Source of the DNA: Nonlabens antarcticus
GTDB lineage: Bacteria > Bacteroidota > Bacteroidia > Flavobacteriales > Flavobacteriaceae
Assembly: GCF_015356755.1 (NCBI RefSeq)
Contig: NZ_JADFCO010000062.1
Span: 124,001-188,000 of the forward strand
DNA: 64,000 nt
Direction: 5' to 3'
This document shows, piece after piece, positions 4,598 through 43,026 of this stretch (position 1 is the first letter of the stretch; the number at the start of each line of letters is the position of its first letter). The notes beneath the pieces are model-generated. The model made no database searches. It was given only the letters and a program-made list of their open reading frames with translations, and was not told the DNA's origin. Both the position numbers and the translations under genes were made by a program.

Positions 4598-4601
4598 CCG
4601 C

Positions 4602-4938
4602 AGCAGGCCGCTCTATCGTATAGCGCTCAGATTTATCTGGGAATTATGAGGAAAGTCCGGACACCATAGGATAACATAGCGGCTAACGGCCGTCGGTTCG
4701 CTTTCGCGAAAGCGAAAACGAATTAGGACCAGTGCAACAGAAAGGATGTACAGGTAATGCTGTAGTGAAACCAGGTAAACTCTATGTGGTGAAATGTCGC
4801 GTAAATCAGAGCTTGAGTGCGATCCGCGCGATTCTGAAGGGTAGGCAGTTAGAGGTTGTGAGTAATTGCAATCCTAGATAAATGATAGAGTGCTTCATTT
4901 ATGGAGTAACAGGATCCGGCTTATAGGCCTGCTTTTTT
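4602..4938 (+). ncRNA. rnpB: RNase P RNA (bacterial class A)
   Basis: The catalytic RNA that matures tRNA 5' ends. The P1 helix pairs AGCAGGCC (4602-4609) with GGCCTGCT (4926-4933). The P4 5' strand with its conserved surroundings, GAGGAAAGTCCGGACACC, lies at about 4650-4667, followed by GCGGCTAACGGCC, ACAGAAA and GTGAAACC landmarks. The 3' conserved part is ACAGGATCCGGCTTATAGGCC. A run of T directly after P1 (4933-4938) acts as terminator. The P12-position hairpin is built from the repeated palindrome (4699-4714), extended by TT/AA to a perfect 20-base stem. Confidence 0.96.
4699..4714. repeat. Palindrome copy 2 (in rnpB)
   Basis: Perfect 16 bases; extended to 20 by TT/AA. Forms the hairpin at the P12 position of RNase P RNA. 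Confidence 0.95.
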
Positions 4939-5080
4939 AATTACCAATTGCTGATTCTTGATTTGCTAAGCAAACCATTATTGCTAATTATCGATTGCGA
5001 ATTGCTGCGCAACCATTTATTCCTTTTCCAGGATATTTCACTGATCATAGATAGATCATTTTGTAAAATTACAAATCTCT

Positions 5081-38301: not shown

Positions 38302-38673
38302 TTAATTTATAGATTTTATAAATTGATAGGATAGTAAAACAGCAGTAATTCCCAAAATGCTGCTCAGTAAAAAATAAATTACCGCCTGTGTATAGGCAGC
38401 TTGTTTCAGCAGAAAATACAACTCAGCAGAAAAAGTGCTGAAGGTGGTCAAGCCACCACAAAAACCCACAGCCAGCAATAGGAATGTAGATTCTGATAGC
38501 TGGCTTTTATCGTTTAAGGCTAGAAAGCTTCCCAAGAGTAAACAGCCTATAATATTAACTGCGATTGTAGGTATCCATTTAATCTCGTCTGAATTGAGCC
38601 ATAGACTCATAAGAAATCGTAGGCAACTGCCTAACCCACCGCCCAGAAAAACAAAGAATAAACTTTTAATCAT
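38302..38673 (-). CDS. crcB: Fluoride ion channel CrcB (Fluc)
   Basis: 123 residues with four membrane segments. FLGGGLGSCLRFLMS near the N terminus and GFCGGLTTFSTFSAEL (the Fluc fluoride-track and sodium-site motif) near 75 are decisive. Dual-topology dimers export fluoride. It overlaps the stop of the upstream gene by one base. No fluoride riboswitch is apparent upstream. Confidence 0.95.
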   Translation of the reverse strand: MIKSLFFVFLGGGLGSCLRFLMSLWLNSDEIKWIPTIAVNIIGCLLLGSFLALNDKSQLSESTFLLLAVGFCGGLTTFSTFSAELYFLLKQAAYTQAVIYFLLSSILGITAVLLSYQFIKSIN

Positions 38674-39695
38674 TATCGAACGGGCAAATAGATTTCAGTA
38701 ATATAATTCGCTGGATTGTCTATTTTACTGGGATCAGTTTTATAAACCTCAAAAGGCGGTTGTTCAGACCTTTCTAAACCATTTGCAGATATGTAATCGT
38801 CACCGTTCTTCCAGGCTTCTCTTAGGTAATCATAACTTCCTTTGAGCGTAATTTTTATGGCACTTTGAGGTTCCATGAAGCCAACTAAGATCCGAGAGTT
38901 AGCGGCTGTAATAACACGTTCTTGAACAGGTACAGCTGCAGAAAATATGGCGTTTTCTCCGTCTTCATCAAACTTCTCATAGAGAACCATATCAGCTCCA
39001 TAAGAATCAATGTTATTAGCATCCATAAAACTATGGATTTTACGTAACATTTGCGACTGGAGACTGGAAAGGTTTTCATAACTAGAGCTGGAAGACATGT
39101 ATAAATAATATCCACCACTGTAATCGATTCTTCCATCCACATTTGCGATGTATTTATCCATCTCGGTAGTTAGGTACTGGTTTAAATTAGCAATACTTTT
39201 CTCATACGATGGACCTAATTCCTCATCCATACTCGTTCCACTCAAGGTTGATAATATTTTGCCGACTAAATTTTTATCGCCAGTCGTATGGATAATGACT
39301 TCTGTACCGTTTTCAACTTGTGCGAGCTTGTAATTTATTTTAGCCCGAGAACTACCTAAGCTATGTTTATAAAACATTTCAAGATCAATGGATTTATTAG
39401 GATTCAATCTTGTAATCGTCATTGTACCTTTTCCATCTTCATCAGTAAAAGAATAGTTTGCATCAACACCAGCAGATTGCTCATTGAGCTGCACATCAAC
39501 ATCACTTCGTTGATGATAAGTATTCCAATTTGCCCAATTGTCAAAATCGGCTATTTGATCATAAACTAGGCTGGATGGTGCATCTACTATAGAAGTGCGT
39601 TTCACGTCATAATGTCCGTCCTGTAATGAGAAATAGACGGCACCTGCGATGATGACCACCAGCAGTAAAATAAGAATGTACTTTAAGGCTTTCAT
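38673..39695 (-). CDS. SRPBCC and GyrI-like effector-binding protein
   Basis: 340 residues. One N-terminal transmembrane segment (about 6-24), then an SRPBCC/polyketide-cyclase-like domain (residues about 30-175; IVDAPSSLVYDQIADFDNWANWNTYH), followed by a GyrI-like effector-binding domain (about 180-340, ending NPANYITEIYLPVR). Such fusions are common in Bacteroidota; ligand unknown. Coupled by a one-base overlap to crcB. Confidence 0.85.
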   Translation of the reverse strand: MKALKYILILLLVVIIAGAVYFSLQDGHYDVKRTSIVDAPSSLVYDQIADFDNWANWNTYHQRSDVDVQLNEQSAGVDANYSFTDEDGKGTMTITRLNPNKSIDLEMFYKHSLGSSRAKINYKLAQVENGTEVIIHTTGDKNLVGKILSTLSGTSMDEELGPSYEKSIANLNQYLTTEMDKYIANVDGRIDYSGGYYLYMSSSSSYENLSSLQSQMLRKIHSFMDANNIDSYGADMVLYEKFDEDGENAIFSAAVPVQERVITAANSRILVGFMEPQSAIKITLKGSYDYLREAWKNGDDYISANGLERSEQPPFEVYKTDPSKIDNPANYITEIYLPVR

Positions 39696-39751
39696 ACTAA
39701 AAAATGGTTGTAGATCAAAGATACAATTTATATGAAGTGATCACAGGTCAT

Positions 39752-39831
39752 AAAAAAACTGCCAGATTTAAGTCTGGCAGTTAGAAAGAAACGCAAGCGA
39801 TTCTTTTCCCCTACTACTCTCTCAAGTAATT
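39752..39831 (-). ncRNA. Candidate small RNA of about 80 nt downstream of the two-component operon
   Basis: The minus strand has a promoter (39837-39867), then about 50 bases without a start codon of note, then a strong terminator: stem AACTGCCAGA / TCTGGCAGTT (39757-39782) followed by T7 on the minus strand. The predicted 5' end is about 39831. The segment is rich in GAGAG/GGGG-type motifs in its first half. It lies 370 bases past the response-regulator stop, too far to be an ordinary terminator of that gene. Transcription is predicted, not shown. Confidence 0.5.
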
Positions 39832-39836
39832 TGAAT

Positions 39837-39883
39837 CAAAGGTAGGAGGTAAGGAAAGTAGACGAAATACCCACTATTGGGTA
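39837..39883 (-). promoter_or_regulatory. NarL-like 7-2-7 dyad and promoter of the candidate small RNA
   Basis: On the minus strand: dyad TACCCAATAGTGGGTA (39868-39883), then TTTC (-33 box, 39864-39867, consensus TTTG), 19 bases, then TACCTTTG (-7, 39837-39844, full TAnnTTTG match). The dyad is two heptamers spaced by two bases, the architecture of NarL sites (TACYYMT). It has the same geometry as the site at 43009-43024. Function as an operator is inference. Confidence 0.6.
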
Positions 39884-40168
39884 TATTTTCAAAAGTCGTA
39901 ATGCTCTAAGGAAAGAAAGTAATTAGCTTACCAACTTTCAAAACAGGTTATAATACAATAAAGCAAGCTAAAAGATATACGATTTCAATAGGCAAGGTAG
40001 TCGCGGATTATAATCGCGAATAAAACTGTTACTCGATTCCAGAAATAAAACAAGCATAAAGTTTTAGTTCATAAGATTTGTGCTTTTGATAAGCAGCTTA
40101 GAAGAGGTGCCAGGATTTTTATCGAGCACGTTGATTATCTGATGTATTACTGAAAATGGAAAGAAGTC

Positions 40169-40184
40169 CGCTTTCGCGAAAGCG
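40169..40184. repeat. Palindrome copy 10 (intergenic)
   Basis: Perfect 16 bases, 18 bases past the response-regulator stop codon. The rest of the 39696-40201 gap is taken by the candidate small RNA and its promoter. Confidence 0.95.
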
Positions 40185-40201
40185 AGATGCAGTGAATCAC
40201 A

Positions 40202-40825
40202 TTACTTATAATGAGGGTGCTGCTGCAAGGCAAATCTCAACAGCTCACCTTTACCTTCCAAGCCTAATTTTTGAATCATATTCTTGCGATGCTTATGAAT
40301 AGTACTCACAGCAGTATGGCGGATTTCTGCTATATCTGATGAACGATTTCCTGCCGCCATGAGCTTTAAAATTTCTCGCTCACTGCGGGAAAGTATATCA
40401 GTATCACCATTAGGAATTTCAGAATTTGGATTGACGGTTATTGATGGATCGATATACGCATTCCCTCGAGAAACACTTAAAATCGCCTCGCGAACTGTCG
40501 ATAATGATCTTATTTTTAAAACGTAACCATCCACACCAGCATTCATCATTTCTTTTACTGCGGATGCATCGTCAAACATAGTGAAAGCTACAACCTTGAT
40601 TTTAGGGTTCTTTTCCTTTACTCTTTTACATAATTCGATGCCGTTCATTCTAGGCATGCTTATGTCTGTGAGTATGACGTTAGGATTTCTGTATTCTAAA
40701 ATACTCATGAGTTCTATACCATCTAGTGCTGTATCGATAACTTCAATATCTGTATCTTTTTCAAATAATAATTTAAGACCGTCGATGAGGGAGACATGAT
40801 CTTCAACAATGATTAGCTGTATCAT
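40202..40825 (-). CDS. NarL/FixJ-family response regulator
   Basis: 207 residues. Receiver domain with acidic pocket (IIVEDH near residue 8) and phospho-Asp in LTDISMP (near 53), Thr-containing AFTMFDD and Lys in YVLKIRS. A LuxR-type helix-turn-helix fills the C terminus: ILSRSEREILKLMAAG, then STIHKHRKNMIQKLGL. It overlaps the histidine kinase gene by 4 bases, so kinase and regulator are co-translated. The conserved DNA-site candidates flanking this operon match the binding style of this family. Confidence 0.95.
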   Translation of the reverse strand: MIQLIIVEDHVSLIDGLKLLFEKDTDIEVIDTALDGIELMSILEYRNPNVILTDISMPRMNGIELCKRVKEKNPKIKVVAFTMFDDASAVKEMMNAGVDGYVLKIRSLSTVREAILSVSRGNAYIDPSITVNPNSEIPNGDTDILSRSEREILKLMAAGNRSSDIAEIRHTAVSTIHKHRKNMIQKLGLEGKGELLRFALQQHPHYK

Positions 40826-42585
40826 ATAAAAGGTATTTCGATGGTTATGGTGGTGCCATGTCCTGGATTTGAATCAATCTCAAACTGACCATCCATATCT
40901 TCCACTCTAGCTTCAATACTGGTCAATCCCATACCATCTGTTTTTTTAGTACGGTCAAGGATAAAGCCCTGGCCATCATCTTCTACCATAAGGTTGATGC
41001 TTGTATCAGAGCCTACAATATTTATACTTGCCGTGCTGGCACCAGCATGCTTTACAATATTGCTTAGCAGCTCCTGCAACATTCTAAAAATGTTAAGTTC
41101 GAGCGAGTTTTCGATCTTTCGATCCATCCCGTGATGAAATATATCCACTTGTAATTTACCGCTATTGGAAATATTAGTTGTCAGCTTTTTGAGCGTAGGA
41201 ATTAATCCTTTACTTGCCAGCACTCCATTGTGACGGCTGTGGGACATCCCACGTATGGTCGCATAGGTATCTTCCAATAACTTATCCGTACGATCATAAA
41301 TCTCTGACGAGGTCTCTGGTTTCAATTGGTTTTTCAAATTATCAAAATACAACCGAATGGTAGTCAATGAACTCCCTAGATTATCATGTAGGTCTTCCGC
41401 TAATTTTTTACGTTCTTTTTCTTGACCTTGAATCATGGCGTCGATCGTGGCGAGTTCTTGGTTCTTCATCAAGTTATCGGCACGTTGTTTTTCCAGTTCC
41501 ATCTCTTGTTTAGCAATACGTTGCTTTTTGCGCTGGTTGTTATACACAAATCCTGCGACCAGTAAAAGAACTAGAGCACTTCCTGCAATGGAAATGATCA
41601 TCAGTTTTTGACGTTCGTTGTCAGCACTTAACTCAGCATTTTCAAGTTTGCGTTCTTGGACTTGGTATTTTGTTTCTAATTCCTGTAATGCATTGAATCT
41701 TTCTGTAGCATTTAGGGAGTCTTTAAAGGAAACGTAACTTTTATAGGATTCTAAACTTTTTTCATATTCCTCATTCAGGTCATAATTTGTCGCTAGATTA
41801 AATAGAATATTGAGCTTAGTATTGTTGACGTTTTCATCTTTTGATAATTGCAAGGCTCTATTCAAATTGTCAATGGCTTCATCGTACCGGCCAAGGCTAT
41901 TCAAGGTATTTGCGATATTATTGTAGAAAGCGATTTTTGTGGGTATGTACTCCTTATTCTCCACATATTTTCTGGACTTCTCATAGTAAATCATTGCAGA
42001 GTCGAACTGTTTTGCCCTTTCATGGGTAGTGGCGATATTAATAACCTCATTGCCATAGATGGTTTTTAAATTTGATCTTTCTGCAATCACACGATTTTTA
42101 TGCAATAGCGCCAATTGTTTTTGGAACTTTAATGGATCATCTTGATCAATTTGATAGAACAAATAACCGTTGCAGTAGATGGTATGTTCGGGATCTTGTG
42201 TTTTTGCAGCTATCGCGCAGTTTTCTGCCATTAATTCACTGGCGGTATTCTGGCTGTTATCAAAAGAAAGTTGGGCATAAATTAGCTCATCGTTCAATTT
42301 GAATAATAAGTCATCGCTCTGATTTTTAAGGAGTCTTTTTGCATCCAGTAAAATCTGGTAGGATTTCACAACTTCACCTTCAAGGTTAATTTTGCAAAGA
42401 GCAAATTCGTAAAGATATTTTGCCTTGTTGAGCCTATTGAAACCGACGGTATCAATCTTAACTAGGATATCTTTCCCTTCTTGGTATTTACCCACATCAT
42501 TTTTGCTGCGGACTTGATCTAGCAAATTTACTTGAGCAAGACTAGTAACGGAAAATAAAAATAAAAGTATTTTGATTAGCTTCAT
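40822..42585 (-). CDS. Sensor histidine kinase with TPR sensor domain
   Basis: 587 residues. Signal peptide (MKLIKILLFLFSVTSLAQ), then helical TPR repeats to about 320 (for example NNIANTLNSLGRYDEAIDNLNRAL) exposed outside the inner membrane, a transmembrane segment at about 330-348 (SIAGSALVLLLVAGFVY), a coiled coil, and a HisKA_3 dimerisation domain with phospho-His in LAEDLHDNLGSSLTT. The ATPase domain has N box LLSNIVKHAGAS, G box EDDGQGF and MGLTSIEARVE. This is the NarX/DegS-type partner of the downstream regulator. Confidence 0.95.
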   Translation of the reverse strand: MKLIKILLFLFSVTSLAQVNLLDQVRSKNDVGKYQEGKDILVKIDTVGFNRLNKAKYLYEFALCKINLEGEVVKSYQILLDAKRLLKNQSDDLLFKLNDELIYAQLSFDNSQNTASELMAENCAIAAKTQDPEHTIYCNGYLFYQIDQDDPLKFQKQLALLHKNRVIAERSNLKTIYGNEVINIATTHERAKQFDSAMIYYEKSRKYVENKEYIPTKIAFYNNIANTLNSLGRYDEAIDNLNRALQLSKDENVNNTKLNILFNLATNYDLNEEYEKSLESYKSYVSFKDSLNATERFNALQELETKYQVQERKLENAELSADNERQKLMIISIAGSALVLLLVAGFVYNNQRKKQRIAKQEMELEKQRADNLMKNQELATIDAMIQGQEKERKKLAEDLHDNLGSSLTTIRLYFDNLKNQLKPETSSEIYDRTDKLLEDTYATIRGMSHSRHNGVLASKGLIPTLKKLTTNISNSGKLQVDIFHHGMDRKIENSLELNIFRMLQELLSNIVKHAGASTASINIVGSDTSINLMVEDDGQGFILDRTKKTDGMGLTSIEARVEDMDGQFEIDSNPGHGTTITIEIPFI

Positions 42586-42953
42586 TAAGGTTTATGCCTA
42601 ATAATTACACCACCGTCAATCGGGTCATCCATTTCTTTCTCCTGATTCAGATGAATGATTACAGGGTATTCCTGATCTTTCACTAATAATTTATTTTTAA
42701 GAGAAAATACCTTTAACGGTTTTACATTACTTTCTAGTTTTATAAGAAAACTTCCATCTTTTTGAAAATGAGCATAGCTTACTTGATGATCCCCATCTAA
42801 TTGGCAAAAAACAACATTGCTCAACGATTTTTTATCGCTCCATTCAAAAAACGCCCAGATTTGCAAACCGTTTTTGTCGTAGAGACAAACGGGTTTGTAG
42901 CACGTGTCTTGGGAGATGATGCAAAGGTGTTGAGATGGTTCTGTGGACTTCAT
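42585..42953 (-). CDS. Hypothetical protein, first gene of the two-component operon
   Basis: 122 residues, no signal peptide or membrane segment, several Trp/Cys/Tyr residues. Sequence runs from KSTEPSQHLCIISQDTCYKPVCLYD through AFFEWSDKKSLSNVVF. Family not recognised; it may be a small beta-rich domain. The stop overlaps the kinase start by one base (TAATG). Position suggests a sensor accessory or input regulator, but only by context. Confidence 0.6.
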   Translation of the reverse strand: MKSTEPSQHLCIISQDTCYKPVCLYDKNGLQIWAFFEWSDKKSLSNVVFCQLDGDHQVSYAHFQKDGSFLIKLESNVKPLKVFSLKNKLLVKDQEYPVIIHLNQEKEMDDPIDGGVIIRHKP

Positions 42954-42977
42954 GGTATGAAGGTTTTAGACTAGGTT

Positions 42978-43026
42978 CAAATATGCCTTGAAATTAGGCA
43001 AAAAAAAATACCCACTAATGGGTATT
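42978..43026 (-). promoter_or_regulatory. NarL-like dyad, promoter of the two-component operon, and overlapping terminator
   Basis: On the minus strand TACCCATTAGTGGGTA (43009-43024) is followed by TTTT (43005-43008, -33 position), 19 bases, and CATATTTG (42978-42985, -7, one mismatch to TAnnTTTG), 25 bases before the first gene of the operon. The left half heptamer fits TACYYMT exactly. The same dyad has a T9 tract on the minus strand and would also terminate the M28 peptidase transcript; both roles may coexist. Confidence 0.55.

Follow-up and report, generated by a model that had tools for sequence, protein, structure and literature searches.

Which genes does the NarL-type two-component system of Nonlabens antarcticus control, and through which DNA site? 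The question is raised by a 64,000-nucleotide stretch of contig NZ_JADFCO010000062.1 (positions 124,001 to 188,000 of the forward strand; hereafter, the window), in which an operon encoding the small protein u122, a sensor histidine kinase, and a NarL/FixJ-type response regulator is flanked by two 18-bp dyads at positions 39867-39884 and 43008-43025. The two dyads differ at a single base, as an earlier reading of this DNA (hereafter, the original prediction) had reported. One dyad precedes the operon and the other precedes a predicted small RNA (sRNA), which we call sRNA1. Because nearly identical dyads front both the system's own operon and a structured RNA conserved across the genus, the system probably exerts its effects by way of small RNAs. 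The best overall explanation, which we consider likely, is that the phosphorylated regulator activates its own operon together with the small RNAs through these dyads. Computational support comes from the sites themselves, their fixed promoter geometry, their conservation, the structure of the RNA, and the association of regulator and site.

Identification of NarL-like dyads

Read on the minus strand, the dyads are TACCCAT-TA-GTGGGTA and TACCCAA-TA-GTGGGTA, that is, inverted heptamers with a 2-bp spacer, which is the arrangement of a NarL-type operator. NarL prefers inverted heptamers separated by two bases, and the engineered 7-2-7 site reads TACCCCTAAAGGGGTA (PMC4549865). Dyads found elsewhere in the genus, such as TACCCCTTAAAGGGTA, resemble this engineered site. 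Relative to the TACYYMT consensus, which we took over from the original prediction, one of the four half sites (TACCCAT) fits in full and the other three deviate at the last letter. The fit to the Escherichia coli NarL site supports the earlier suggestion that these are NarL-like 7-2-7 sites.

The dyad pattern occurs at two places in the window and at no third even when three mismatches are allowed (100 shuffled sequences average 0.11), so the statement that the window holds only two full dyads is upheld. The exact core TACCCANTANTGGGTA has two copies in the 3,270,668-base genome, 3.1 kb apart and both beside the operon; with two mismatches, 17 sites are found in the genome versus 4 for the reversed control. 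A wider core, TACCCNNTANNGGGTA, yields four genomic sites: the two dyads of the window, C63:174779, and C64:388965 (C denotes contigs, G genomes, and L loci). The last of these (G000:C64:388965) was set aside, as no promoter is present at 22-24 nt. Across 23 Nonlabens genomes, including the one analyzed here (G000), the wider core was found at 91 sites versus 6 for the reversed control, four of these six in G001.

Promoter geometry of the dyads

The distance from the 16-bp core (TACCC-N6-GGGTA) to the start of the -7 box is 23 bases at both sites, in agreement with the identical geometry first proposed. Both sites also present the -7 boxes that had been described, but the box of the operon promoter starts with C rather than T. 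The -33-like box (TTTC or TTTT) placed directly after each dyad did not hold up: it shares bases with the end of the dyad, and at the small-RNA promoter it shows no conservation. We counted the motif TAnnTTTR at each distance from 80 genus dyads and 30 family dyads, which are a part of all dyad sites and were collected without any promoter condition. The motif was found at exactly 23 nt from 37 and 13 of them, respectively, versus a maximum of 4 (genus) and 1 (family) at any other spacing from 5 to 60. Since no other spacing comes near this frequency, the 23-nt distance is beyond chance.

Nineteen of the 20 sRNA1 loci keep the 23-nt spacing, and G018 has 22 nt. Of 16 genus operons, 15 have NAnnTTTR in their promoter at this distance, G018 being the deviating one, and G012 adds a seventeenth operon with this arrangement; the initial T is found in only two of the 16. 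Compared with the Bacteroidota promoter elements TAnnTTTG and TTTG, the -7 element is present, as TAnnTTT[AG], at the sRNA1 promoter of all 20 loci and the -33 TTTG is not conserved there. The -7 element of Flavobacterium johnsoniae, TANNTTTG, is numbered from T-12 to G-5 (PMC6847099). With 23 bases between the core and T-12, this numbering places the dyad centre at -43.5, between the positions of the E. coli NarL sites at napF (-40/-49) and yeaR (-38/-47), which are both activated by NarL (PMC4549865). Such a centre would suit an activator touching the -33 region.

Structure of sRNA1

The layout of sRNA1 comprises an AGGGG run, a 9-bp hairpin (hairpin 1), and a terminator. The first GGGR is fully unpaired in the minimum-energy fold of 12 of 19 sRNA1 sequences and partly paired in the window copy. 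When the copies of seven genomes, comprising six distinct sequences, were aligned, both sides had changed in 7 of 20 pairs and 98.3% of the cells pair. This level of covariation was reached by none of 500 shuffles and is abolished when the pairing partners are slid. In 13 further sequences (12 distinct), both sides changed in 5 of 18 pairs, all of them in the terminator, which was equalled by 5 of 500 shuffles; hairpin 1 is almost invariant among these sequences. G011 was left out of one alignment (A4), its stem being shifted by one column.

ATG is absent from 8 of 20 sRNA1 sequences, including the window copy, and no reading frame is common to them. Apart from G011, the remaining frames span 3 to 33 codons at scattered positions. 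No Rfam family fits sRNA1, the only window match above gathering being RNase P. At eight loci with dyad-driven RNAs, the only Rfam match above gathering is 6S-Flavo, elsewhere in the locus; matches in L198 and L208 fall below gathering and were taken as chance. The sRNA1 model (R1) has a second match in the same genome (G000:C63:124936, L086, 41.3 bits), which we rejected as a chance pair of hairpins with neither a dyad nor the GGGGA motif.

A second predicted small RNA and a shared G-rich motif

The third dyad of the genome (G000:C63:174779; L198:2280-2500) lies outside the window and is followed at 23 nt by the -7 box GATCTTTA. The predicted transcript, sRNA2, is about 170 nt long, lies behind an aldo-keto-reductase-like gene, and ends with a strong terminator; its other neighbour in relatives is an rny-like gene. 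This RNA displays UAUUA-GGGG-UAAUA and GUUUCUGAU-AUUAGGGAC-AUUAGAAAC, with the core (U)UAGGG(G/A). In the copy of the present genome, the second motif is paired in the minimum-energy fold and its display is therefore not certain. The counterparts in G005, G001, G014, and G015 align at both motif hairpins and at the terminator and vary in the middle, and the diverged counterparts of G006 and G011 retain AGGG in or near loops. At the same place, G002 and G007 (L201 and L211) possess a dyad and AGGGG but, at the 23-nt distance, no proper -7 box; the copy of G012 reads UAGAGG, as if decayed. In three Nonlabens genomes, a 6S-Flavo RNA lies across the rny-like gene from sRNA2 (L208:380-488, L200:4157-4266, and L211:4023-4133).

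Most sRNA2 sequences carry AGGG in hairpins in two copies, and sRNA1 carries a single AGGGG run. We sorted 135 unique dyad-plus-promoter sites by script, a set that includes loci picked via the 23-nt pattern, into 70 protein leaders, 35 terminated noncoding transcripts, and 30 sites that are neither. The 35 do not comprise the sRNA1 of G011, classified as a protein leader because of a running ATG frame, nor the RNA-like candidates L214 and L220. GGGG was found before the terminator in 29 of these 35 transcripts (shuffle mean 8.4, maximum 15), which are not independent because 26 of them are orthologues of sRNA1 (19) or sRNA2 (7), versus 2 of the 70 protein leaders over their first 90 nt and 3 of the 30 other sites over their first 120 nt. 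UUAGGG occurs in 18 of the 35 (shuffle mean 2.5, maximum 6). Among the nine remaining transcripts, six (L024, L051, L069, L179, L191, and L233) contain GGGG or GGGA ahead of the terminator, one (L246) has GGGG confined to the terminator loop, and two (L249 and L252) lack the motif. The two dyad-driven RNAs of G108 have AAAAUUGGGGCUUU in common, exactly or nearly, and the two of G081 have AAGUAAGUUUUUUUGGGGUAA in common. The extended motif thus seems to go with the genome, differing between genera and shifting together in the RNAs of one genome, which may point to a trans-acting partner, whether RNA or protein, that evolves with these RNAs.

Conservation and phylogenetic distribution

The GyrI-like gene downstream of sRNA1 was found in 22 of the 23 Nonlabens genomes; the genome without a match, G013, is 77% complete. 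sRNA1 was identified upstream of this gene in 21 genomes, 20 of which present the dyad; in G012, the contig stops before the place of the dyad. The operon and its upstream interval could be read in 17 genomes (the contig of G020 begins within the kinase gene), and the upstream dyad is present in all 17, as exact TACCC-N6-GGGTA in 16 and with one mismatch in G012. Conservation in near relatives, on which the original prediction had staked its validity, was thus observed at both places. Among 80 named loci of M28 peptidases, the family of the upstream neighbour, exact TACCC-N6-GGGTA was found only in two Nonlabens loci, and the other 78 presented no match at E<=1e-20 to the regulator, u122, or the GyrI-like protein, nor any kinase match of at least 90 residues. 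The GyrI-like gene of G020 is matched as three separate pieces, two of which contain stops, and the upstream dyad and sRNA1 are present (L153:2506-3520). Separately, G007, G019, G002, and G020 (L155, L156, L157, and L167) carry the dyad TACCCTTTAAAGGGTA a few kb upstream of a paralogous kinase-regulator pair, where it is followed by a gene for a 459-aa protein that is probably secreted.

Across Flavobacteriaceae, the full pattern TACCC-N6-GGGTA-N23-TAnnTTTR yielded 118 sites in 68 of 397 genomes versus a single site for the reversed pattern, and a narrower core without the promoter yielded 32 sites in 20 of 199 genomes versus 2 for the control. The regulator was detected in 87 of the 397 genomes (E<=1e-40) and the dyad promoter in 68, with both in 45 (odds ratio 13.4); the associated p of about 1e-18 (Fisher) ignores kinship between genomes and is too strong. 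In 23 of these 45 genomes, two of them Nonlabens, the site follows the stop codon of the regulator by no more than 1.2 kb and shares its strand. Together, the conservation of the dyads at both places, the compensatory changes in the RNA, and the co-occurrence and adjacency of regulator and dyad favour what had been proposed for this locus, namely that the local regulator is the probable binder, with autoregulation and a small-RNA output.

A proposed circuit and its alternatives

In the circuit that we propose, the sensor kinase would phosphorylate the NarL-type response regulator, a dimer of which would bind the 7-2-7 dyad (18 bp, with its centre at about -43.5). The bound dimer would touch RNA polymerase at the -33 edge and thereby switch on promoters of the Bacteroidota type. 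The outputs in this genome would be the operon itself, through positive feedback, sRNA1 just downstream, and sRNA2 on another contig. We infer binding by the regulator, activation over repression, transcription of the RNAs, and their mode of action from these comparisons.

Several observations weigh against this circuit. G009, G016, and G022 possess the M28 gene, the dyad, sRNA1, and the downstream gene without a local kinase-regulator pair; the genome of G009 has no regulator match at all at E<=1e-30, and G017 presents neither dyads, nor pair, nor RNA at the locus. The whole-genome search with the sRNA1 model matches just 12 of 23 genomes (E<=0.001), the remaining copies having been accepted on model score plus position beside the downstream gene, and the scores of G011 and G021 are low (25.6 and 21.7 bits). 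The window copy alone folds at minimum energy into a different, longer hairpin than the consensus and has lost one pair of hairpin 1 to a U-U mismatch. In G011, an ATG inside the RNA stays open into the downstream gene. At the family level, 23 of the 68 dyad genomes have no regulator match at E<=1e-40, and a site of the exact form is missing from 42 of the 87 regulator genomes. Outside Nonlabens, a protein gene follows the regulator-adjacent dyad in 19 of the 21 genomes: sorted by eye, 16 have a secreted or lipoprotein-like gene there, three (G268, G307, and G164) have a different protein gene, and two (G108 and G394) have an RNA-like unit. Given this predominance of protein genes outside the genus, the presence of the operator beside the regulator seems to be old and the small-RNA output to be a lineage trait. 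The dependence among the noncoding transcripts and the gene-leader counts reported below also weigh against the circuit. The RNA-like unit behind the regulator's dyad in G394 (L345:3291-3400) consists of UUUGGGAGAA followed by a hairpin with a U-rich tail.

The presence of the dyad and the RNA without the pair in G009, G016, and G022 implies that another NarL-type regulator is presumably able to use the site. The dyads could then be operators of such a regulator, for instance the paralogue found in about half of the genus, with the local pair merely one target. G016 and G022 indeed carry only the paralogue (52-53% identical; such a match occurs in 12 of 23 genomes), but the dyad adjoins relatives of the local regulator family-wide and the genome of the window has a single regulator match at E<=1e-30, and we regard this alternative as unlikely. 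Repression by the regulator at the dyad, in place of activation, is slightly less likely still. A dyad centred at -43.5 reaches the edge of the -33 region, a position compatible with either effect, and NarL itself does both (PMC4549865); activation is favoured because the sRNA1 promoters combine a good -7 box with a -33 region that is not conserved, as expected for activator-dependent promoters, and napF and yeaR are NarL-activated from sites at nearly the same position.

Two further explanations would remove the operator or the RNA from the circuit. The dyads might be intrinsic terminators, the one at 43008 serving the M28 gene, with an accidental likeness to operators. In the clade of the window, this dyad has an A run on one side and a T run on the other, and it may double there as the M28 terminator; stable folding is predicted for each strand (z -5.2 and -4.3). 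However, G012 and G009 present a distinct terminator-like hairpin between M28 and the dyad, several operon dyads of the other clade lack the A and T runs, most dyads have TA at the centre, the distance to the -7 box is fixed, and 70 of the 135 dyad-promoter sites precede protein genes. On the separate hairpins, the missing runs, and the fixed spacing, we rejected the dyad as nothing but the M28 terminator, and the broader terminator explanation appears extremely improbable. sRNA1 might alternatively be a mere attenuator or leader of the GyrI-like gene, or encode a peptide, since it sits just upstream of that gene in all 21 genomes that have it and the frame of G011 runs into it. Yet the GyrI-like gene has its own -7 box past the terminator, TAT[AC]TTTG, kept in 8 of 8 aligned loci, and sRNA1 is therefore not simply its leader; the sRNA1 sequences share no frame, and sRNA2 and the post-regulator RNA of G108 (L051) have other locations. 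This explanation is very unlikely.

Possible mode of action of the small RNAs

We searched the 23 genus genomes for three families of RNA-binding proteins and found no match to CsrA (0/23; 3 of 14 named control genomes positive), RRM_1 (0/23; 2 of 14), or Hfq (0/23; 5 of 14). To our knowledge, no global small-RNA partner protein is established in Flavobacteriaceae. Eight patterns (UUAGGG, UAGGGR, AGGGG, and complements among them) were counted in 253 gene leaders from 464 kb (the window plus 400 kb, about 14% of the genome), and neither the motif nor its complement was clearly enriched. UUAGGG occurred 4 times versus 3.1 in shuffled leaders, and [CT]CCCTA occurred 10 times versus 4.9, a count reached by 4 of 100 shuffles and nonsignificant given eight patterns.

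Both RNAs probably act in trans, and there is about an even chance that they do so through pairing of their G-rich seed with C-rich stretches of mRNAs, the mode that we consider most likely. That they instead bind a novel protein is possible and less likely than pairing with mRNAs. More specifically, the RNAs may be sponges for an RNA-binding protein that reads UAGGG in loops, in the way that CsrB and RsmY/Z act on CsrA. The RNAs are otherwise dissimilar and have in common only a brief G-rich core, which frequently falls in hairpins and is present twice in sRNA2, but CsrA, RRM_1, and Hfq are unmatched in the genus and UUAGGG is not enriched in leaders, so that we hold the sponge model only tentatively. 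Somewhat more speculative is the idea that Flavobacteriaceae independently evolved a Csr/Rsm-like circuit, in which a NarL-type system would fire several unrelated small RNAs that present UAGGG(G/A), or a G-rich core related to it, to titrate a novel global RNA-binding protein.

Relation to known systems

GacA has a LuxR-type domain, and the Rsm/Csr small RNAs carry several GGA loop motifs. As in the circuit proposed here, the GacS/GacA (BarA/UvrY) system drives several small-RNA genes (RsmX/Y/Z or CsrB/C) from an 18-nt inverted repeat. The UvrY repeat at csrB and csrC is TGTAAGN6CTTACA, centred at about -182 at csrB (PMC4682653), whereas the dyad of Nonlabens is TACCC-N6-GGGTA and lies near the promoter. 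Unlike in that system, a TPR-containing kinase is encoded beside the regulator, an operator precedes the system's own operon, and the genus has no CsrA match. In streptococci, the two-component regulator of CiaRH likewise drives several RNAs (csRNAs) with similar interacting parts. The csRNAs are thought to pair with mRNAs through parts complementary to ribosome-binding sites, and CiaR uses the direct repeat TTTAAG-N5-TTTAAG (PMC8186281). The dyads described here are not such a repeat and, in contrast to the targets of csRNAs, Bacteroidetes mRNAs lack Shine-Dalgarno sequences (PMC6847099).

The E. coli NarL system shares the 7-2-7 site, a near-equal distance to the promoter at napF and yeaR, and a homologous regulator, but here the predicted outputs include small RNAs, the promoter is of the Bacteroidota type, and VraR is a slightly closer solved relative. 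Within Bacteroidota, the Bacteroides RRM protein RbpB binds the FopS small RNAs, which also occur in several copies with a common motif (PMC11697453). RRM_1 is unmatched in the 23 Nonlabens genomes, however, and the available text of that paper does not tie FopS to a two-component system. Literature text searches, whose coverage left out most subscription papers, returned no description of the present circuit. Two-component systems with small-RNA outputs are of a known kind; a NarL-type operator in this role, in a genus without CsrA, RRM_1, or Hfq matches, would be new. The proposed circuit combines a defined kinase input with an operator whose geometry is known and with two or more predicted small RNAs, and thereby offers an entry point to post-transcriptional control in a large marine bacterial group. 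Two RNA families absent from Rfam are added as well, and the promoter rule (dyad, 23 nt, TAnnTTTR) locates candidate regulon members across the family.

Operon genes and other features

The regulator matches PF00072 (E 3e-24) and PF00196 (E 1.5e-11), the receiver and LuxR-type helix-turn-helix domains of the NarL/FixJ type, and its nearest solved structures are VraR, slightly closer, and NarL (PDB 1a04, E 3e-21). The gene downstream of sRNA1 (38673-39695) encodes Polyketide_cyc2 and GyrI-like domains. Matches to u122 were found in 8 of 23 genus genomes, its own included, and a lipoprotein-like gene (176-213 aa) fills the same slot in eight others; those of G010 and G003 share the u122-type ending GG.I.....P. 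This suggests fast evolution or gene replacement at this slot. The names akr and rny and the terms "secreted" and "lipoprotein-like" come from reading translations, not from family searches.

Table 1. Coordinates of features in the 64,000-nucleotide window.
Feature	Position	Strand	Remarks
Operon operator, 7-2-7 dyad ATACCCATTAGTGGGTAT (minus-strand reading)	43008..43025	-	predicted
Small-RNA operator, 7-2-7 dyad ATACCCAATAGTGGGTAT (minus-strand reading)	39867..39884	-	predicted; kept at 20 genus loci
-7 box CATATTTG of the operon promoter	42978..42985	-	23 nt from dyad core; start predicted at ~42973
-7 box TACCTTTG of the small-RNA promoter	39837..39844	-	TAnnTTT[AG] at 20/20 loci
sRNA1, predicted transcript of ~81 nt	39752..39832	-	no ATG; start inferred from the -7 box
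Conserved GGGGA motif	39807..39811	-	
sRNA1 hairpin 1, 9 bp	39785..39806	-	compensatory change at 6/9 pairs in 7 sequences
sRNA1 terminator hairpin, then U run	39757..39782	-	
TATCTTTG, separate -7 box of the downstream gene 38673-39695	39716..39723	-	
u122, first operon gene, 122 aa	42585..42953	-	no Pfam family
Sensor histidine kinase: TPR, HisKA_3, HATPase_c	40822..42585	-	Pfam matches
NarL/FixJ-type response regulator: Response_reg, GerE	40202..40825	-	Pfam matches
RNase P RNA (RF00010)	4600-4939		sole Rfam match above gathering in the window

We also observed a 16-bp palindrome, CGCTTTCGCGAAAGCG, with 12 exact and 3 one-mismatch copies in the 64 kb of the window, where none would be expected; the 15 places include 1101, 4699, 9604, 12816, 20733, 29341, 40169, 44414, and 50098. 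It is absent from the loci examined of other genera, is found in many Nonlabens loci, and has 49 copies in 400 kb of the same genome. The sequence looks like a highly iterated genomic palindrome, and its copies are located in open reading frames, in intergenic DNA, and within the RNase P RNA gene (4699).

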